Source: a virus. Taken from it: a DNA stretch of 39,826 nt. The translations under genes were made by a program, and so were the position numbers. The stretch spans positions 1 to 39,826 of the IMG/VR virus record IMGVR_UViG_3300046012_000369, one strand, 5' to 3'. This document shows, piece after piece, positions 1 through 39,826 of this stretch. Positions within the stretch are counted from its first letter, which is position 1; the number at the start of each line of letters is the position of its first letter. Below the pieces are notes generated by a model. It searched no databases. It had not been told where the DNA came from and saw only the letters and a list, made by a program, of their open reading frames with translations.

Positions 1-71
1 GATGGAAGAGACACCCCCGCCCCTTTTTTAGTTCGTTCATGCTCTCCCTACTGCTTCGCTACGGCTCTATT

Positions 72-137
72 GCGACCGTCCTGCACGTCATCCGCACACC
101 ATCCGCACCACACTTGCACCACACCTGCGCACCATCT
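72..137. repeat. Six tandem 11-bp iterons
   Basis: Six consecutive units begin at 72, 83, 94, 105, 116 and 127, exactly 11 bp apart. Each starts GC(A/G) and most continue C-N-C-C-A-(T/C)-C-T; the units at 94 (GCACACCATCC) and 127 (GCGCACCATCT) are closest to the consensus. The strand is almost free of G outside the first and third positions of each unit. Spacing of one helical turn places every unit on the same DNA face, as in iterons bound by replication initiators or clustered operators. The array lies 36 bp upstream of a promoter and has no credible gene over it. Binding partner unknown; the initiator-like protein at 38647-39705 is the obvious candidate. Confidence 0.7.
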
Positions 138-172: not shown

Positions 173-201
173 TTGACATCCGCCAGTGCCGCGCGTACTC
201 T
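173..201 (+). promoter_or_regulatory. Sigma70-type promoter of the left plus-strand operon
   Basis: TTGACA (173-178) is a perfect -35 box, followed after 17 bases by TACTCT (196-201) as -10 (4 of 6 matches). Transcription would start near 208, giving a leader of about 48 bases before the ATPase start at 256. It lies directly after the iteron array, so a protein bound there could control it. Confidence 0.7.
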
Positions 202-255: not shown

Positions 256-873
256 ATGCAGCAGCTAACCGAGCAATACCGTCCACGCACAATCGAAGAA
301 TTTATCGGGTTAGACAAACCTAAGCGGCTGTGCAAACGGCTGCGAGATAGTCCATACCCGTCCGCGCACCTATTCGTGGGGGAACCGGGCATCGGTAAAA
401 CCACGATGGCACTTGCGCTCGGCGAGACGATGCCAGCGCAGCTGCACCATATACCCTCTCAAGACTGCAATCTAGATCGGCTGCGTCGTGTCATTGACAA
501 TTGCCACTACTTCCCCGCTGATGGATGCAAAATGCATCTCGTCTTAGTGGATGAAGCAGACCAGATGACCGACCCCGCGCAGCTCTATTTCCTTTCCAAA
601 CTCGATTCGACCGACCGACCACCACAAACGATTTTCATCTTCACAGCGAACGGCACGGAGAGACTACAGCCGCGCTTTCTCTCACGTTGCCAGCGCATCG
701 ATTTTTCCAGCTATGGCAACTCCACCGACGCTGCTGCGCTGCTAGAGCTGGCATGGGAGATGGAAGCGCCGAAAGATGCGCCGCGTCCTAACTTCGGCCG
801 CATCGTGAAAGAAGCAACGGGAAACATCCGCGCCGCACTGATGCGCTTACAAAACGATCTGCTACTGAGCTAG
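256..873 (+). CDS. AAA+ ATPase, clamp-loader (RFC/DnaX) like
   Basis: A 205-residue AAA+ ATPase. Visible motifs: Walker A GEPGIGKTT (about residues 42-50), Walker B LVLVDEAD (95-102), sensor 1 TAN (130-132) and the SRC motif (143-145) that marks clamp-loader subunits, where the Arg serves the neighbouring subunit's ATP. The opening YRPRTIEEFIG is also typical of RFC/DnaX proteins. Known members load sliding clamps onto primed DNA. It is short: the AAA+ core and a small lid fit, but the C-terminal oligomerisation collar of true clamp loaders is missing or tiny. No clamp or polymerase gene is visible, so it may act on the host clamp or in another remodelling role. The reading frame is open further upstream (to 70), but the RBS at 241-247 supports 256. 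Confidence 0.8.
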   Translation: MQQLTEQYRPRTIEEFIGLDKPKRLCKRLRDSPYPSAHLFVGEPGIGKTTMALALGETMPAQLHHIPSQDCNLDRLRRVIDNCHYFPADGCKMHLVLVDEADQMTDPAQLYFLSKLDSTDRPPQTIFIFTANGTERLQPRFLSRCQRIDFSSYGNSTDAAALLELAWEMEAPKDAPRPNFGRIVKEATGNIRAALMRLQNDLLLS

Positions 874-5176: not shown

Positions 5177-5519
5177 GTATGTTCTCCTCCGCGATCGCGG
5201 CATGTTTCGCCAGGAGGCGCCCGAGGTCGCGCGCTTGGCGAGGCGAGAAAACAATATGGCCGTTCCCTTCGGCATCCGTCAGTAGATCCGGATGATTGAT
5301 CACAACCTCGTCGCCCTTTTCTGTCACGCCGACGAGCAGCTCGCCGCAGGGTTTAGCAGGCAGCTTGGATCGCAGTGCTAGGCCCTGCATAATCAGGAGC
5401 ACCTCTTCGGTGTTAGGGCGCGTGTGCACCTGCGGCTGATATCCGGCCGCGACCAACTGAGCGCGAATCTCCTCGAAAGCTCGCGCACTCACCTCCATCA
5501 CGGCATAGCTGAAAGTCAT
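5163..5519 (-). CDS. Hypothetical protein
   Basis: 118 residues, not recognised. Mixed helix and strand (ARAFEEIRAQLVAAGYQPQV, then EVLLIMQGLAL), ending in a long helix (PRQARDLGRLLAKHAAIAEE). It begins at the ATG of an ATGA overlap with the DnaC-like gene, behind AGAGGAGG. The frame is open upstream, but that extension lies wholly inside the DnaC-like gene and looks like a shadow. Tight coupling with the helicase loader suggests a place in DNA replication or modification; nothing more can be said. Confidence 0.65.
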   Translation of the reverse strand: MTFSYAVMEVSARAFEEIRAQLVAAGYQPQVHTRPNTEEVLLIMQGLALRSKLPAKPCGELLVGVTEKGDEVVINHPDLLTDAEGNGHIVFSPRQARDLGRLLAKHAAIAEENIRAKR

Positions 5520-6292
5520 CCTCTCCTCTTTCCGATCGCCGCGCGCTGATCTGCGCCCTCGATGTCGATCGCAATGCACATTTCCTGCAATCGTGAAAAC
5601 ATCCGTTCTCCGATGCGATCGCCGAGCGTCTCCTTGCGCATCACGCTCAAAGGCTGGTCCATCATTGCCGCGTAGTTGCCGGCCGCTACCAGCTTCGGCC
5701 CGGCGCCGGCCGCTGGCGTCCATCCCGCGCCATGGTTCGGGTAGTTGTTCGCGATGATGGTCGAGCGCGCCGCGTTATACCTGGTGTTCAAGATGTGCTC
5801 GGTCATCGCGAAGGTCCACTCCGTGGATCTCGCAGCGCCCACTTCGTCGATCGCCAGGATGTCGGCGGCGAGGATCCTTTTGAGCAGCGCGTGCTCGGTC
5901 ACATCGCTCGACGGGTTGAACGTCGCCTTGACCTCGGTAAAGAACGCCGGCAGGTCCACGAAGGCGATGCTCGCGCCCCACTGCACATTGCAGCCCTTGA
6001 GCATCGCGACGGCCAGGTGCGTCTTGCCCACGCCGCACGGCCCGGTCAGCAGCATTCCCAGCTCGCGCCGTGTTGTCCATTCCTCGACGTAGCGGCGGCA
6101 CATCAGCAGCGCGGCTCCGGCCGATTTGCTCAGTTTGCCGTCGTAGGTCTCGAAGTCCTTCGCGACGTACCGTTGCGGGATGCCCGCGCGCTCAAGCCGC
6201 GCATGCAGCTTCCGCTCGACGCTGCAGACGCAGTCGCGCACGCGATTATTCTCGAACACCATCCCTGTGTCGTTGCAGGTGGGGCAGCTCAC
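5516..6292 (-). CDS. DnaC/IstB-type helicase loader ATPase with N-terminal zinc site
   Basis: 258 residues from GTG at 6292, which overlaps the previous stop as GTGA behind AAGGAGG. Residues 1-30 hold CPTCNDTG and CVC, a zinc ribbon like that of DnaC/DnaI loaders. The AAA+ core shows Walker A TGPCGVGKTH (83-92), Walker B ILAIDEVG (145-152) and sensor 1 ANNY (181-184). Known homologues place the replicative helicase at an origin after an initiator has melted it. With the initiator-like protein at 38647-39705 this makes a lambda O/P-like pair that would recruit the host helicase. Family assignment is firm; the host partner is inferred. Confidence 0.88.
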   Translation of the reverse strand: MSCPTCNDTGMVFENNRVRDCVCSVERKLHARLERAGIPQRYVAKDFETYDGKLSKSAGAALLMCRRYVEEWTTRRELGMLLTGPCGVGKTHLAVAMLKGCNVQWGASIAFVDLPAFFTEVKATFNPSSDVTEHALLKRILAADILAIDEVGAARSTEWTFAMTEHILNTRYNAARSTIIANNYPNHGAGWTPAAGAGPKLVAAGNYAAMMDQPLSVMRKETLGDRIGERMFSRLQEMCIAIDIEGADQRAAIGKRRG

Positions 6293-6468
6293 GCGGCCTC
6301 CTTGGTGATCCACGTCTCATGCACCCACACCTTGCGGCGAGGGTTCGGCCGGTTCGGGAATGGTAACCACTCGTCGCATTCGACTCGGACCTGGAAGCCG
6401 CCCCACGGTGACGGCATCACGGAGTGGATGATGGCGTTCTTCCCGATGTGGCGCACGGAGATCGCCAT
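6289..6468 (-). CDS. Small hypothetical protein
   Basis: 59 residues, not recognised. Rich in Trp, Pro and Arg (PNPRRKVWVHETWITKEAA at the C-terminus), strand-like. It begins two bases after the previous stop at ATG 6468, with only a weak RBS (GGACAA), and ends in a GTGA overlap with the helicase loader, so its translation probably feeds that gene. The frame is open upstream to 6636 but only as a shadow of the previous gene. Confidence 0.6.
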   Translation of the reverse strand: MAISVRHIGKNAIIHSVMPSPWGGFQVRVECDEWLPFPNRPNPRRKVWVHETWITKEAA

Positions 6469-32188: not shown

Positions 32189-34327
32189 TTACGCGCCGGC
32201 GATTGTGCTTGGCCCTTGGCCGGCGAGAGTCTTTTCATCGTTCGATCGTTGCAGCAGTCCCTCGGCGCGATCGAGCGGGATACCCGCCTCGTCGCGCTCA
32301 AGCGCTTTCTCTGCAACTGTGGTCGCGAGGTCGTTCTGCGATTTGCGGTCCGCGAGGTTGAGGGCATTGTCGCCCTTGATCTTCTCGACCGTCGTTGCCT
32401 CCTGCACCTTCGCGTTGGGCGCATTCATGGTGAGCACCATCTGCTTCTCCTGATCCGTCATCGGCACGATGATCTGGTCCTCGATGCGGAACTCGCTGAC
32501 CTGGAAGAGCACGTCGAGGATGGTGTCGAGCGAGATGGTCTTGCCTTCGTTGTGGAGCTGCTGCAGCAGTTGCGGCTGCTGGAAGATCTCCATCAGGTAG
32601 GGCAGCTGCTGCGCCATGGCGACCTTTGCGGCCAGCTTCGCCGCGGCGAGCATCTCAATCTGGATCTCGGCCGACATGAATTCGTCGGCGTCGAAGTCCT
32701 TCATGATCTCGGCGGCGAGTTTGCCGTTGAGGATCTGCAGCACCTCCTTGGTGGGCATGTAGATCTTGCACATATCCACCAGCATGTAGAGGAAGGGAAC
32801 CAACAGCCCGAGCTCGATGTTCTCGACCGGCGTCTGCACGCGGCTGTCGGCCTTCGCCGCGATGCGGCCGGCGCCAGTCGCGGTGCGCGCCGCGCTCGAT
32901 CCTTTGCCCTGTAGCTGTCCTTGCATGAAGGTCGCGTCGGCGCCGCTCGTTTCTTCGCTCGACGTTTTCGAGTACTGGATCATCTGCCAGGCCTCGGGCG
33001 GAATCTTCGGCATCTCCATCACGCCCATTGCCTTGCGCACGTCGTCGCCGGTGACGGCAAAGAAGCCGCCGGCGCGTATGGTGCGGTTTCCGGTCGGCGC
33101 ATTCTGACCCATGATGTGCAGGATCGCCGGGTTCGCCTGGTACGCGAGTAGGTTGAGCGCGTGGTCGAGCGTGCCTTGCTCGATGCGCTGGTCGCCTCCA
33201 ACCAGCTTGCCCATGCCCATGCCCCATCCGGTGTTGAGCTTGCTCCGCCAGTTCGCAGTGAAGTGCGGGATGCGGCCGAGACGGTGTTTGTCGTTGCGGA
33301 TGGTGACGGTGCGGCTGTTGAAGCAGAGGCAGGTCATCACGCGGCTCTTGTCGTGCCGCTCAAGCATCATCATCGGCTGGCCGAGAGGGTCGGCGGTGGT
33401 TGGCCGGCTGCGTTCCTCGGCGTGCGAGACTACGCTGCCGCCGAGCGAAAGGCTGCGCTCGGTGTCCGTGCCGCCTTCGGCGCTCGCCTCTTTGTTGTGA
33501 AAGAAAAACGCCTTGAGCGCCTCGGCATCGGGGATCTTGTAACAACCCTCGTTGCGCATCCCCTCAAGGTCCATCCACGTTGGATAGTCGATGTCGACTA
33601 CAAAGCCGCAGAGGTCGGGGCGGTTCGGCGTGCGCCAGCCTGGATCGAAAAGCGTCGTGCCGAGCAGCCGGTTTTCCAGCCATGGATAGCTTTCCTCGAT
33701 CGTCTCGTCGACTGTTTCGTAATCGAGGCTCTCTTCCGTCGTGACCTTTGTGCCGCCCAGCGGGAGGGTGACGTCTTCCTTCGAGGCCTTCGCTTTTCTC
33801 TTACGCACCACGCGAGGTCGCTTACTCCACCCGCCTTTCCATACGCCGGTTCCGTGCAACGCCTGGCTGCTTATACCGAGGCCGGTCCAATACTGGAAAT
33901 CCATGCGGTCGAGCAGTGTGTCGAGCAGCGCGGTCCAGCCCTTGACGGATAGCTCGCTGGTTTTGCCGCGTGGCCGAATAAGGAACGGCGGCTTCTGCGC
34001 AAAGAGCGCGTTCTTCACCGCGTCGCCCATCGTGTTCGACTGGTTATTTACGGTGTAGCGCGGCACGCGGGCGCGCGTCGGATCTGCGAGGGAGTCGAGC
34101 AGCGGCACGTCGTAGAGAATGTCGTTCTCGACCCATTGCTCTGAGAACATCTCGCTATCGACAAAGACGCGCGCGCGGTTGTAATCCTGCACCACGAGGC
34201 TTGCCGCCGCCGCGTCGTCATACTCCGGCAATTCACCCGGCGCCAGGTTACGCGTGTAGACCTGTCCCATGGTGATTTCGGCAAACCCGTTGTAGCCGAC
34301 CGGCATTGCCTTGCTGTCTTCAGCCAT
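32189..34327 (-). CDS. Portal protein
   Basis: 712 residues, the usual size of podovirus (N4/T7-like) head-tail connectors. Visible features are an N-terminal helical domain (DDAAAASLVVQDYNRARVFV), the clip and wing region with ATGAGRIAAKADSRVQTPVE, and a long helical C-terminal end rich in Gln and Lys. The position directly after terL, overlapping it by 8 bases with GGAGG five bases before ATG, supports the call. It forms the dodecameric ring through which DNA enters and leaves the capsid. Confidence 0.82.
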   Translation of the reverse strand: MAEDSKAMPVGYNGFAEITMGQVYTRNLAPGELPEYDDAAAASLVVQDYNRARVFVDSEMFSEQWVENDILYDVPLLDSLADPTRARVPRYTVNNQSNTMGDAVKNALFAQKPPFLIRPRGKTSELSVKGWTALLDTLLDRMDFQYWTGLGISSQALHGTGVWKGGWSKRPRVVRKRKAKASKEDVTLPLGGTKVTTEESLDYETVDETIEESYPWLENRLLGTTLFDPGWRTPNRPDLCGFVVDIDYPTWMDLEGMRNEGCYKIPDAEALKAFFFHNKEASAEGGTDTERSLSLGGSVVSHAEERSRPTTADPLGQPMMMLERHDKSRVMTCLCFNSRTVTIRNDKHRLGRIPHFTANWRSKLNTGWGMGMGKLVGGDQRIEQGTLDHALNLLAYQANPAILHIMGQNAPTGNRTIRAGGFFAVTGDDVRKAMGVMEMPKIPPEAWQMIQYSKTSSEETSGADATFMQGQLQGKGSSAARTATGAGRIAAKADSRVQTPVENIELGLLVPFLYMLVDMCKIYMPTKEVLQILNGKLAAEIMKDFDADEFMSAEIQIEMLAAAKLAAKVAMAQQLPYLMEIFQQPQLLQQLHNEGKTISLDTILDVLFQVSEFRIEDQIIVPMTDQEKQMVLTMNAPNAKVQEATTVEKIKGDNALNLADRKSQNDLATTVAEKALERDEAGIPLDRAEGLLQRSNDEKTLAGQGPSTIAGA

Positions 34328-36035
34328 TCAATCCTCCGAGCATGGGCCGAAGACCATAGCTGCGCGCCTGCACCGGCTCGGGCGCTTCGATGGCGGCTTC
34401 GACCTCGGCCGCGCCGCCCTCTCCGTAGATTCTGCTATACCACGCATTGTCTTTCGCGACCTGATGCATCACGCGATCCTCTTCGGACACGTGGCCTTTG
34501 AACGTCGCGATCGGAATGCGCAGCGCGAGTCGGCTGATTACGTCGACCAGGCCATTCGACTCGACCATGCCGAAATTCGTGAACTGGTTTTGCAGTTCGT
34601 CGCTCTGTCCGCTCCACGTTGAAAACCACAGTCGGCCCGCGCGCATCATCGGCTGCAGGTTCTTCATGCGGCCGCTGCGTATCGCGTCGTCCATCTCGAA
34701 CTCCGGCCGCTCGATGCGCAGGCTCCAATTCTGCCTCGTTGCCTCGTTGTAGATGTGTGGAATCATCGACTCGCTGCCGGGTGTGTTCTCGATCACAACA
34801 TCGCCGCATTGGGCCTTTTTACAGCCCCGCACGATGCGCTCACATAGCTCGGTCGGGGTATAGACTCCGCGCCAGGAGTCGACGACGTAGACGCGTGAGC
34901 CGGCATAGAGGACCGCCGCGCCTTCGGCATAGCGCGCCATGTACGGCTTCGCATCGCATTGCAGCCGCCAACAAATCTTCACGTCGCCGGTCGCTGGCAC
35001 GCGCTCGCCGTCGAGTGTCGCCTGACGAAATGCGGCGGCCGGGAAGAGAGAGACGCCGCCTCCCTGCGGATCGTTTTGCTGCTGGCACATGAAAATGCGA
35101 TAGTCGGCGCGGAATTTCGAGCGCAGCGACTTGTAGGGCAGCATCTCCGGAAACAGCAGGGTCATGTCTTCTTCGGCGGGGAACTCGCCCTCGACCAGGC
35201 GGTCTCCGCTCTTGACGATCAGAGAGGACCGGATGAGCGTCTTCCACTCGCCCTCTTCCATCGTGTTCAGCATCCGCCCGTAGGCGTCGAAAGGGTGGTA
35301 GCGCGTGCCGCGCACATTGGTGTAGCCGCCGGTGCGCAGCGTGTTCGCGTTCGTGGTGTAGGTGTTCCACACGCGCTCGCGGCTGGCGTCCGATGCGTCG
35401 AGGCCGCTGTTCTCGGTGTCGACCATATCGTCCGGATTGATGATCCATGGGTGCCAGCCGGACTGCGCCGAGCCGACCGAGGTCGAGTACAGCGTCGGCT
35501 CGATCTCGTCGCGTGTGGAGCTGGGCGCGCGGTAGGTGGCGCGCGTCTTTTCGATCACCAGCTCCGGGAAGATGCGCTGGAAGATGGTCAGGTAGCCGTT
35601 CTTGGCTTTCGTGAAGATCTTCGCGGTGCGCCTGGTGAGCGCGGCGCCGAGCGGCTGTGTCGCCGTCTCGTTGACGATGGTGATGTCCGGGTCCGTGCAT
35701 ATCCATTGCACGGTGTCGATGATGCCCCAACTGGTTTTGAAGGTGTGGCGCGGGTCGAGGTGCATCCGGTTCTTGATGGGGTGCTGGTCCTCGATCTTCC
35801 GGCCGGGACACTTCTCGACATAGAGGTCCTTGACGCGCTGGTGAACGTCGAGGCGGAAGTCGTCGAAGCCGAGCAGCGGCGCGAGAAAGAAGCCGTCCGT
35901 GATGCATCGGTGCCGCAGCTCCGCCCTGTAGTCGGCGTCGGAGTCGATTCGCTCACGGTTGATGGAGGCGATATCGACGGAGATCGCCAACCGATGGCGC
36001 TGACTCTCCGTCAACTCGCTCAGCTCGTCTTTCAT
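34320..36035 (-). CDS. terL: Terminase large subunit
   Basis: 571 residues. An N-terminal packaging ATPase with a deviating Walker A in HLDPRHTFKTSW (about 92-103; Lys100-Thr101), the strand WICTDPDITIVNETA after it, and a C-terminal RNase-H-like nuclease domain with VYVVDSWRG and GDVVIENTPGSE holding candidate acidic metal ligands. The deviant P-loop (RHTFKT instead of GxxxxGKT) is common in TerL proteins. No small terminase is recognisable; the Cys-rich protein at 37359-37865 or another small upstream gene may serve. The gene lies 30 bases after the preceding stop. Confidence 0.85.
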   Translation of the reverse strand: MKDELSELTESQRHRLAISVDIASINRERIDSDADYRAELRHRCITDGFFLAPLLGFDDFRLDVHQRVKDLYVEKCPGRKIEDQHPIKNRMHLDPRHTFKTSWGIIDTVQWICTDPDITIVNETATQPLGAALTRRTAKIFTKAKNGYLTIFQRIFPELVIEKTRATYRAPSSTRDEIEPTLYSTSVGSAQSGWHPWIINPDDMVDTENSGLDASDASRERVWNTYTTNANTLRTGGYTNVRGTRYHPFDAYGRMLNTMEEGEWKTLIRSSLIVKSGDRLVEGEFPAEEDMTLLFPEMLPYKSLRSKFRADYRIFMCQQQNDPQGGGVSLFPAAAFRQATLDGERVPATGDVKICWRLQCDAKPYMARYAEGAAVLYAGSRVYVVDSWRGVYTPTELCERIVRGCKKAQCGDVVIENTPGSESMIPHIYNEATRQNWSLRIERPEFEMDDAIRSGRMKNLQPMMRAGRLWFSTWSGQSDELQNQFTNFGMVESNGLVDVISRLALRIPIATFKGHVSEEDRVMHQVAKDNAWYSRIYGEGGAAEVEAAIEAPEPVQARSYGLRPMLGGLNG

Positions 36036-38396: not shown

Positions 38397-38642
38397 ATGG
38401 CTAAACCTACTCGTCAAACACCAAATTCAGAGGGCTCAATACAGCTCGGATTTCGCGGCTCTGCACAGGAGCAAATACTGCTGAATCATGCCGCCAAACT
38501 GCAAAATCGCAGTCGTAATTCATTCCTCAAGATTCACTCCCTGCAAGCTGCGCGCGCTGTGCTGAAAGAGAACGGCGTTGACGAAACTAGCCTCTTCCCG
38601 AAGGCTTCAAAGGTAGTGCGCTCACGCGCAAAGGCGGCGTAG
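38397..38642 (+). CDS. Ribbon-helix-helix (DUF1778-like) regulator
   Basis: 81 residues. GSIQLGFRGSAQEQILLNHA, then AAKLQNRSRNSFLK and a following helix, match the strand-helix-helix layout of DUF1778/TacA-type DNA-binding proteins, which are antitoxins or repressors. No toxin gene lies beside it: the next gene is the initiator. It is divergent from the late operon with 11 bases between the start codons, so it could repress both directions. No RBS is visible; the transcript may be leaderless. Confidence 0.6.
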   Translation: MAKPTRQTPNSEGSIQLGFRGSAQEQILLNHAAKLQNRSRNSFLKIHSLQAARAVLKENGVDETSLFPKASKVVRSRAKAA

Positions 38643-38646
38643 CCCC

Positions 38647-39705
38647 TTGGCTTTACGCGGCGTTCCCGAACACCCGAAATTTGCTGCGCTCAAGGCCAAG
38701 TTGTCTCTCTCGAAATTCGAGGGTATGGGGCTGCTTGAGACGCTGTGGCACTTCACTGGTCGCTACGCACCACGCGGCGACATCGGCCGATTCCCCGACG
38801 AGCAGATCGAAGCGTGGCTGGAGTGGAAGGCGAAGCCTGGCGCGGCGATCGCTGCGCTCATCGACACCGGATGGATCGATCATCACCCGAAATACCGCCT
38901 CGTCATCCACGACTGGCACGAACACGCCGATAACACGACGAAAAAACAGGTCAGTCGCCGCGCTAAGACGCAGCTAGATAAAGGTTTATCTGTCGATTGG
39001 GTATTCGTCGGTCTGGAGGGCCTTCCCCTCAGGATGTCCGGACACCGTCCGGACATGTCTAGCACAAACGGTAATGTGTCACGTCCCCCTGCCCCTGCCC
39101 CTGCCCCTGCTCCTGCCCCAGAGCCAAATACCCCCTCGACTACGTCTCGGGGGAAGCGCGCCGCCGAAAAGCGCGGCACGCAGGCCCCGGAAGTGCCGGG
39201 AGGCGAAGAGGTTGCGAATCCAACACCTGCATCACGGAATGGGCATCCCTTGGCATCGGAGGCGAGTCGCATAGCCGACGTACCCAAGAATGAGGCCGGA
39301 CGCCTCCTAGAGCCGAAACCCAACGGGTTACAGCTATCCGGTGGAGGTTCCAAAAGGCCGCATCGCGTTGCCTCATCCGACGCTCGTTTTGTCGATTTTC
39401 GGGACCACTTGAAGGCCTATTATGGCGCGGTCAACAGGCAGTCTGCGGGATCTACTCCATGGGGTAAGGTCGAGGACCGCGCTCTCTCCGATCGGCTGCA
39501 AGCTGAGCCGTCGCTGACACTGGACGATCTTGCGGTGCGCCTGGGCCATCTGGTGACGGCGGTGCGGATTTGCTCCGAAAAACCGAGGATGCGCAAGGGT
39601 GAGCATCGTGGTAATGTAGGGCCGCGAGACCCCTTGGCAGCTGTGATCCGCCGGCTACCGGAGTATGCGGACGGCCCGGTCGACGCGTTCGGCGAGAAGC
39701 TCTAA
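38647..39705 (+). CDS. Replication initiator-like protein (phage O / replisome-organizer type)
   Basis: 352 residues from TTG 38647, four bases after the regulator's stop, with AAAGG about ten bases upstream. The first 115 residues look like a winged-helix domain (LETLWHFTGRYAPRGDIGRF, AIAALIDTGWIDHHPKYRLV) as in phage replication proteins; a linker with a Pro-Ala repeat (APAPAPAPAPEP, about 150-160) and a long polar stretch follow; the C-terminal 100 residues (DFRDHLKAYYGAVNRQ, SLTLDDLAVRLGHLV) form a helical domain that could bind the helicase loader. The gene contains two iteron-like repeats (39035-39055), as lambda O contains its origin. Family assignment rests on layout and context. Confidence 0.6.
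   Translation: MALRGVPEHPKFAALKAKLSLSKFEGMGLLETLWHFTGRYAPRGDIGRFPDEQIEAWLEWKAKPGAAIAALIDTGWIDHHPKYRLVIHDWHEHADNTTKKQVSRRAKTQLDKGLSVDWVFVGLEGLPLRMSGHRPDMSSTNGNVSRPPAPAPAPAPAPEPNTPSTTSRGKRAAEKRGTQAPEVPGGEEVANPTPASRNGHPLASEASRIADVPKNEAGRLLEPKPNGLQLSGGGSKRPHRVASSDARFVDFRDHLKAYYGAVNRQSAGSTPWGKVEDRALSDRLQAEPSLTLDDLAVRLGHLVTAVRICSEKPRMRKGEHRGNVGPRDPLAAVIRRLPEYADGPVDAFGEKL
39035..39055. repeat. Two 11-bp palindromic repeats inside the initiator gene
   Basis: TGTCCGGACA (39035-39044, a perfect palindrome) and CGTCCGGACA (39046-39055), exactly 11 bp apart. The same unit recurs at 39719-39750 and is not found elsewhere in the window. They encode RMSGHRPDMS at the start of the linker, so coding constraint there is probably weak. 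Confidence 0.65.
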
Positions 39706-39826
39706 ACCTGTTTCCACCTGTACGGACAGTGTCCGGACAGTGTCCGGACACGCGCCCCCCCCCCGCGCCCGCGCCCTGCCGTCCTATAAACCAAAACAGT
39801 GATTCGGTCAAGATGGCGAACAATCC
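39706..39826. other. Gene-free right end with C10 run
   Basis: After the initiator stop this stretch holds the three palindromic iterons, then a run of ten C (39755-39764) in a GC block, then a moderately A-rich segment (39785-39799). An ATG at 39813 runs off the end; if 39826 joins base 1, that frame would code for only 14 residues (stop at 29-31). No other gene is seen. Together with 1-255 it forms the candidate origin region. Confidence 0.5.
39719..39750. repeat. Three 11-bp palindromic repeats downstream of the initiator gene
   Basis: TGTACGGACA (39719), TGTCCGGACA (39730) and TGTCCGGACA (39741), each 11 bp after the last; the second and third are perfect palindromes. They start 13 bases after the initiator's stop codon. 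Spacing and sequence repeat the pair inside the initiator gene, so one protein probably binds both clusters. Confidence 0.75.

Follow-up and report, generated by a model that had tools for sequence, protein, structure and literature searches.

Short direct repeats in a one-turn register beside a promoter may serve as iterons of a replication initiator or as sites for a cooperative regulator, and a locus at the left end of an uncultivated virus contig raises the question of which of these applies. The window considered here, that is, the whole 39,826-bp stretch of record IMGVR_UViG_3300046012_000369, carries six 11-bp units ahead of a gene for a clamp-loader-like ATPase. A preliminary description placed them at 72-137, just before a promoter and outside any credible gene, and offered both functions.

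An 11-bp phased array in front of the early operon

The array stands out from the rest of the window. When every 6 x 11 placement was scored, the register 72/83/94/105/116/127 gave the highest value, with 98 of 165 pairwise identities among the six units, against a maximum of 85 (mean 74.5, s.d. 3.2) when the full 39,826 bases were shuffled 100 times with dinucleotides preserved (Markov-1). Tandem Repeats Finder (TRF) reported just 2.2 copies (105-128) because the units have diverged. The best register common to the relatives described below begins one base earlier, so that the units, each a YGCR core followed by N7, are best placed at 71-136 on the plus strand in a strict 11-bp register; they read TGCGACCGTCC TGCACGTCATC CGCACACCATC CGCACCACACT TGCACCACACC TGCGCACCATC.

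The array is flanked on its left by a C-rich box, ACCCCCGCCCC (13-23, plus strand), which is kept at this side of the array in relatives. On its right, an inverted repeat read directly from the sequence, GTAAC-N7-GTTAC (148-164), forms a putative operator ahead of the -35 hexamer. A sigma70-type promoter (173-201, plus strand) follows, with TTGACA at 173-178, a 17-bp spacer and TACTCT at 196-201, in agreement with the promoter expected here. Downstream are a ribosome site and the ATG at 256 of the clamp-loader-like AAA+ ATPase gene (256-873, plus strand), the first of the early operon. Its 205-aa product, which is without a collar domain, matches PF00004 (8e-11), DNA_pol3_delta2 (2e-8) and phrog_5846 (2.5e-27); the second gene of the operon is ArdC-like (anti-restriction). 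Further along, the window encodes a DnaC-like helicase loader (5516-6313) and a terminase large subunit (34320-36035); no clear small terminase subunit was identified in the window, and no end repeats were found in its record.

The right end of the window carries a different set of elements. A small ribbon-helix-helix protein of the TacA/DUF1778-like type (38397-38642, plus strand) precedes a 352-aa replication-initiator-like protein (38647-39705, plus strand; phrog_9474, 2.4e-14). Three 11-bp palindromic units TGTCCGGACA(G/C) form an array of their own at 39719-39751, and two further TGTCCGGACA copies lie inside the initiator gene at 39035-39055. The consensus of the left array is unlike these repeats, and the suggestion that two different elements occupy the two ends is borne out.

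In the window, no stop interrupts the clamp-loader frame across the array, and a homologous protein encoded across 70-255 would have contradicted the non-coding assignment. No such protein was found: stops occur upstream in this frame in 22 of 25 relatives, and the strand and unit number of the array also vary, which rules out a protein-coding reading of 70-255.

Conservation in related soil phages

A search with the clamp-loader-like protein returned about two dozen (~25) related soil virus contigs of 38-47 kb. Of 21 records tested for a homologous terminase, 16 had one, among them all near-complete genomes of the group in that set; by this protein the closest relative of the window is G023 (65%). 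Nearly all related contigs stop just upstream of the early operon, and the 11-bp arrays are found at that end. When periods of 7-18 were tested against shuffles, period 11 was the strongest in 22 of 26 left ends, so the conservation of the period, proposed beforehand as a check, is clear. Three of the four exceptions (G006, G009 and G027) start inside or after the array; the fourth, G004, has a weak array on the opposite strand.

The unit common to the relatives is (C/T)GC(A/G)GG(C/T)(C/G)AT(C/T). When a matrix was derived from six relatives alone, excluding the window, the window array scored 37 bits, compared with a maximum of 16.3 bits in 60 shuffled 40-kb strands. Individual arrays range from five copies of TGCAGGCCATC in G007 to the more varied series CGCAGGTGATC TGCGGGCCATT AGCGGGTCATT CGCGGGCGATC TGCTGGCCATC in G003 and CGCCAGACATC CGCATGGCATT CGCAGGTGATT CGCAGGCGATT CGCAGGCGATT in G023. 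The array lies on the opposite strand in G004, G026, G035 and G008, and in G033 its place is occupied by a 22/23-bp repeat of different sequence. We conclude that the early promoter region contains a genuine cis element, phased and widely conserved, for which we infer a function below.

It could be proposed that the phased motifs act passively and need no dedicated protein, but simply curve or stiffen the DNA upstream of the promoter. The strict helical phasing, the degenerate unit and the variable strand orientation are compatible with this. However, phages share more than the period, since the YGCR core and the AT(C/T) letters are also conserved among them, and the array is without A-tracts; we consider a purely passive element very improbable.

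The position of the array is tied to the promoter. Its last unit ends 37 bp from the -35 hexamer in the window and 34-39 bp from it in most relatives, yet the number of units ranges from ~3 to 11 across genomes. This distance has a spread of ~5 bp, so the array does not keep an exact helical phase relative to RNA polymerase. Where other genes precede the clamp-loader gene in the operon (G007 and G035), the array remains at the operon's promoter. G008 too has an array of this consensus upstream of a TTGACA/TTGCAA-type promoter-like sequence, as do G021 and G022, two contigs that are otherwise unrelated.

The gap between array and -35 holds an inverted repeat in most relatives, with a phage-specific sequence. 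Under a strict rule, a genome's own inverted repeat recurred near its right end in 6 of 22 genomes (G010, G013, G025, G027, G028 and G034), against 4.5% of mismatched pairs; the right end of G023 has a palindrome, CTGTAACACGTGACGTTACAG, similar to the window's repeat at 148-164. This two-place inverted repeat likely corresponds to an immunity-type repressor with two operators.

Two local peculiarities were seen around the clamp-loader gene. In G020 (L139), more motif units occur at 996-1028, right after the clamp-loader gene, and within its N-terminus; units in the 5' part and after the gene indicate that arrays can flank the promoter on both sides. In G002, the clamp-loader-like gene (L003, 221-650) has no Walker A region, is split over two frames, and is broken or misassembled.

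The hosts are probably Acidobacteriota, as suggested by a clamp-loader homolog in a Candidatus Acidiferrum contig and by a terminase match to Tunturiibacter phage Tunturi_3. The latter is the best-covering cultured terminase, but it is distant (23% identity), and the phage collection searched contained no close cultured relative of the group. DNA searches over the array region found no close cultured phage or plasmid relatives. The consensus pattern matched once in 396 Acidobacteriota genomes, with two units only, indicating that these arrays belong to phages and not to host chromosomes generally; a general host-chromosome repeat was rejected on the same result. Literature searches for 11-bp phased phage arrays returned nothing matching.

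Replication modules, partition modules and candidate binding proteins

The array might consist of replication-origin iterons for the phage initiator or of an origin recognized by a host factor. Direct repeats of 11 bp by a promoter, in the neighborhood of initiator and clamp-loader genes and with a DnaC-like loader in the same genome, fit this proposal, and the strict register is also that of the phage and plasmid initiator iterons of lambda O and RepA. Unlike those iterons, the array persists across non-homologous initiators that have different iterons of their own, in or beside the gene. The 38647-type initiator and the DnaC-like loader occur together in the same 9 of 15 genomes, while the remaining six have different replication modules and still have the array. 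The O/DnaC-like pair was not found in G004, G007, G013, G014 and G019, all of which have the array, and G002 retains it next to a plasmid RepA (RepA_C) with its own GGTGAAACGCTCCCCCC iterons. Since the array accompanies O/DnaC-like, RepA_C and other modules alike, the initiator-iteron reading is not supported, and an origin function in either form is quite improbable. Thus, of the two functions first offered for the array, that of a cooperative regulator is favored by its conservation and its link to the promoter, whereas that of initiator iterons is rejected because the array outlasts initiator swaps. The 38647 initiator-like protein is not likely to be the binder of the left array.

The 38647-type initiator genes have phage-specific iterons inside or beside the gene, often with an 11-bp step (TGTCCGGACA, TCCGGAACGAT and CCGGACAATGT), while others are GATGCTCCAAGCATC palindromes. 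Such loci were seen in the window (39035-39055 and 39719-39751), L005, L008, L011, G020 and G023; in the initiator relatives L005, L008 and L011, other 11-bp iterons come just after the N-terminal domain.

Partition offers another precedent for the unit length, as the parC centromere of plasmid R1, bound by ParR, is made of 11-bp direct repeats. A plasmid-type centromere (parS/parC) of a phage-plasmid would, like R1 parC, place tandem 11-bp units upstream of a promoter, and several relatives encode ParA with a ribbon-helix-helix partner; the plasmid RepA of G002 also points in this direction. Unlike at R1 parC, however, no par operon adjoins the array downstream, and ParA is not generally present: a search for the ParA-type ATPase (PF13614) detected it in 7 of 21 genomes only, and it is absent from the window, G023, G019 and G020, all of which have the array. 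A ParA centromere was rejected on this distribution, and partition by any plasmid-type centromere seems barely plausible here. The array accompanies replication modules that are unrelated to one another, occurs whether or not ParA is present, and is also found in operons where the clamp loader is not first, all of which argues against both initiator iterons and a ParA centromere. The telomere of a linear phage-plasmid was also rejected, as a TelK/ResT-type protelomerase (PF16684) was found in none of 19 genomes.

The ribbon-helix-helix protein encoded at 38397-38642 is the best candidate binder, although unproven. It matches PF08681 (1.2e-4), its profile matches TacA-type antitoxins and, weakly, Arc in the PDB, and its helix pair was modelled at pLDDT 93-95. 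Ribbon-helix-helix proteins bind tandem short repeats cooperatively, the met boxes of MetJ, the heptads of omega and the operators of Arc being tandem arrays of this kind. The array resembles them in its short, near-identical direct repeats with a fixed step of one helical turn, beside a promoter, an arrangement suited to cooperative dimers. The ribbon-helix-helix gene is also family-wide here: 24 of the 26 main-family genomes encode a homolog of the TacA/Arc type, and the protein is a common feature of array-bearing genomes. It was not detected in the partial sequences G008, G011, G012, G021, G022, G024, G036 and G037. To our knowledge, an 11-bp unit with a YGCR core has not been described for MetJ/omega/Arc-type operators.

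Unlike in those systems, the binder of the array is putative, and a Mantel test gave no signal of co-variation between the array motifs and the ribbon-helix-helix protein (r 0.03, p 0.36), although this is a weak test with so short and saturated a protein. The motifs follow the clamp-loader tree instead (Mantel r 0.46, p 0.0004). For these reasons, the protein is a candidate only; it is a better one than the 38647 initiator-like protein, and a host factor is a possible binder as well.

Genome ends and the early promoter

Because the array sits beside the contig end in the main family, a role in end recognition also has to be weighed. The array might be the recognition site of a small terminase subunit or an end-processing repeat by the physical genome end. 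The R sites of lambda cosB and the short repeats at T7 genome ends are known examples, and like them the array lies near a genome end, with an anti-restriction gene among the early genes that follow it. Main-family contigs end 0-130 bp left of the array, and in G036, G008 and G021 it is located between the terminase module and the early module. In six relatives the C-rich box lies 43-48 bp from the contig start, in one more it is at 55, and the cluster of six left ends hints at a real terminus. On the other hand, unit length and spacing differ from those of cosB and T7 end repeats, and the proximal units keep their distance to the promoter and not to the end. G036 and G037 carry an uninterrupted array in the interior of the contig; their small terminase subunit looks P27-like by reading, and still the unit consensus does not change. 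The contigs end at scattered positions, ranging from before the array to beyond it, and no terminal repeats were found in the contigs examined for ends. Certain right ends continue into a promoter and then the first part of another gene, indicating missing sequence and not a clean cos end. A fixed cos end was rejected on these grounds, and packaging is kept as the leading rival, in itself unlikely, and not as the main reading.

The array is most likely a shared early-promoter protein-docking element rather than the phage's own replication origin. More specifically, its helically phased units would let a cooperative DNA-binding protein dock at the early promoter, a proposal that we hold with about even confidence, and the array possibly acts at the genome end too. 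One DNA-binding protein, encoded by the phage or the host, would occupy one unit of 11 bp after another along the same face of the helix, spreading cooperatively into a nucleoprotein filament or wrap. The first early operon encodes the clamp-loader-like ATPase, the ArdC-like anti-restriction protein and others; the filament would stop ~35 bp ahead of the -35 hexamer of this operon, and it may set promoter activity jointly with a second regulator that would recognize the phage-specific inverted repeat.

A broader version can be envisaged, in which one cooperative protein on the phased YGCR array at the genome-end junction has two tasks, shaping or protecting the incoming end and switching the first early promoter. 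We regard this new family-wide element as decidedly doubtful. If it were true, such an element, hitherto undescribed, would be independent of the replication, partition and immunity modules swapped around the array in uncultivated soil phages whose hosts are probably Acidobacteriota.

The array survives the exchange of replication modules, partition modules and operator sequences in two dozen phages, which points to a function common to all of them. Its 66 bp, with one or two candidate proteins, provide a testable handle on early gene control, and the array is a sequence signature for locating the early end of these phages in metagenomes.

Two further observations concern the contig ends. Outward-facing promoter-like sequences are found at both ends, and contigs stop at or shortly after their -10, as at the right ends of G007, G019, G001, G013, G032 and G033 and at the left ends of G004, G007, G014, G019, G031 and G032. 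The right ends of G013 and G033 continue into a leader and an ATG, and a segment with at least one gene seems to be missing from all these assemblies. Finally, many relatives encode, after the initiator region, a conserved protein of ~95 residues (M-KDxxGNxLxxGDxV...GxVxxxxEGGLITG...), which was seen at the right ends of G001, G003, G005, G006, G010, G013, G014, G020, G026 and G029-G033.
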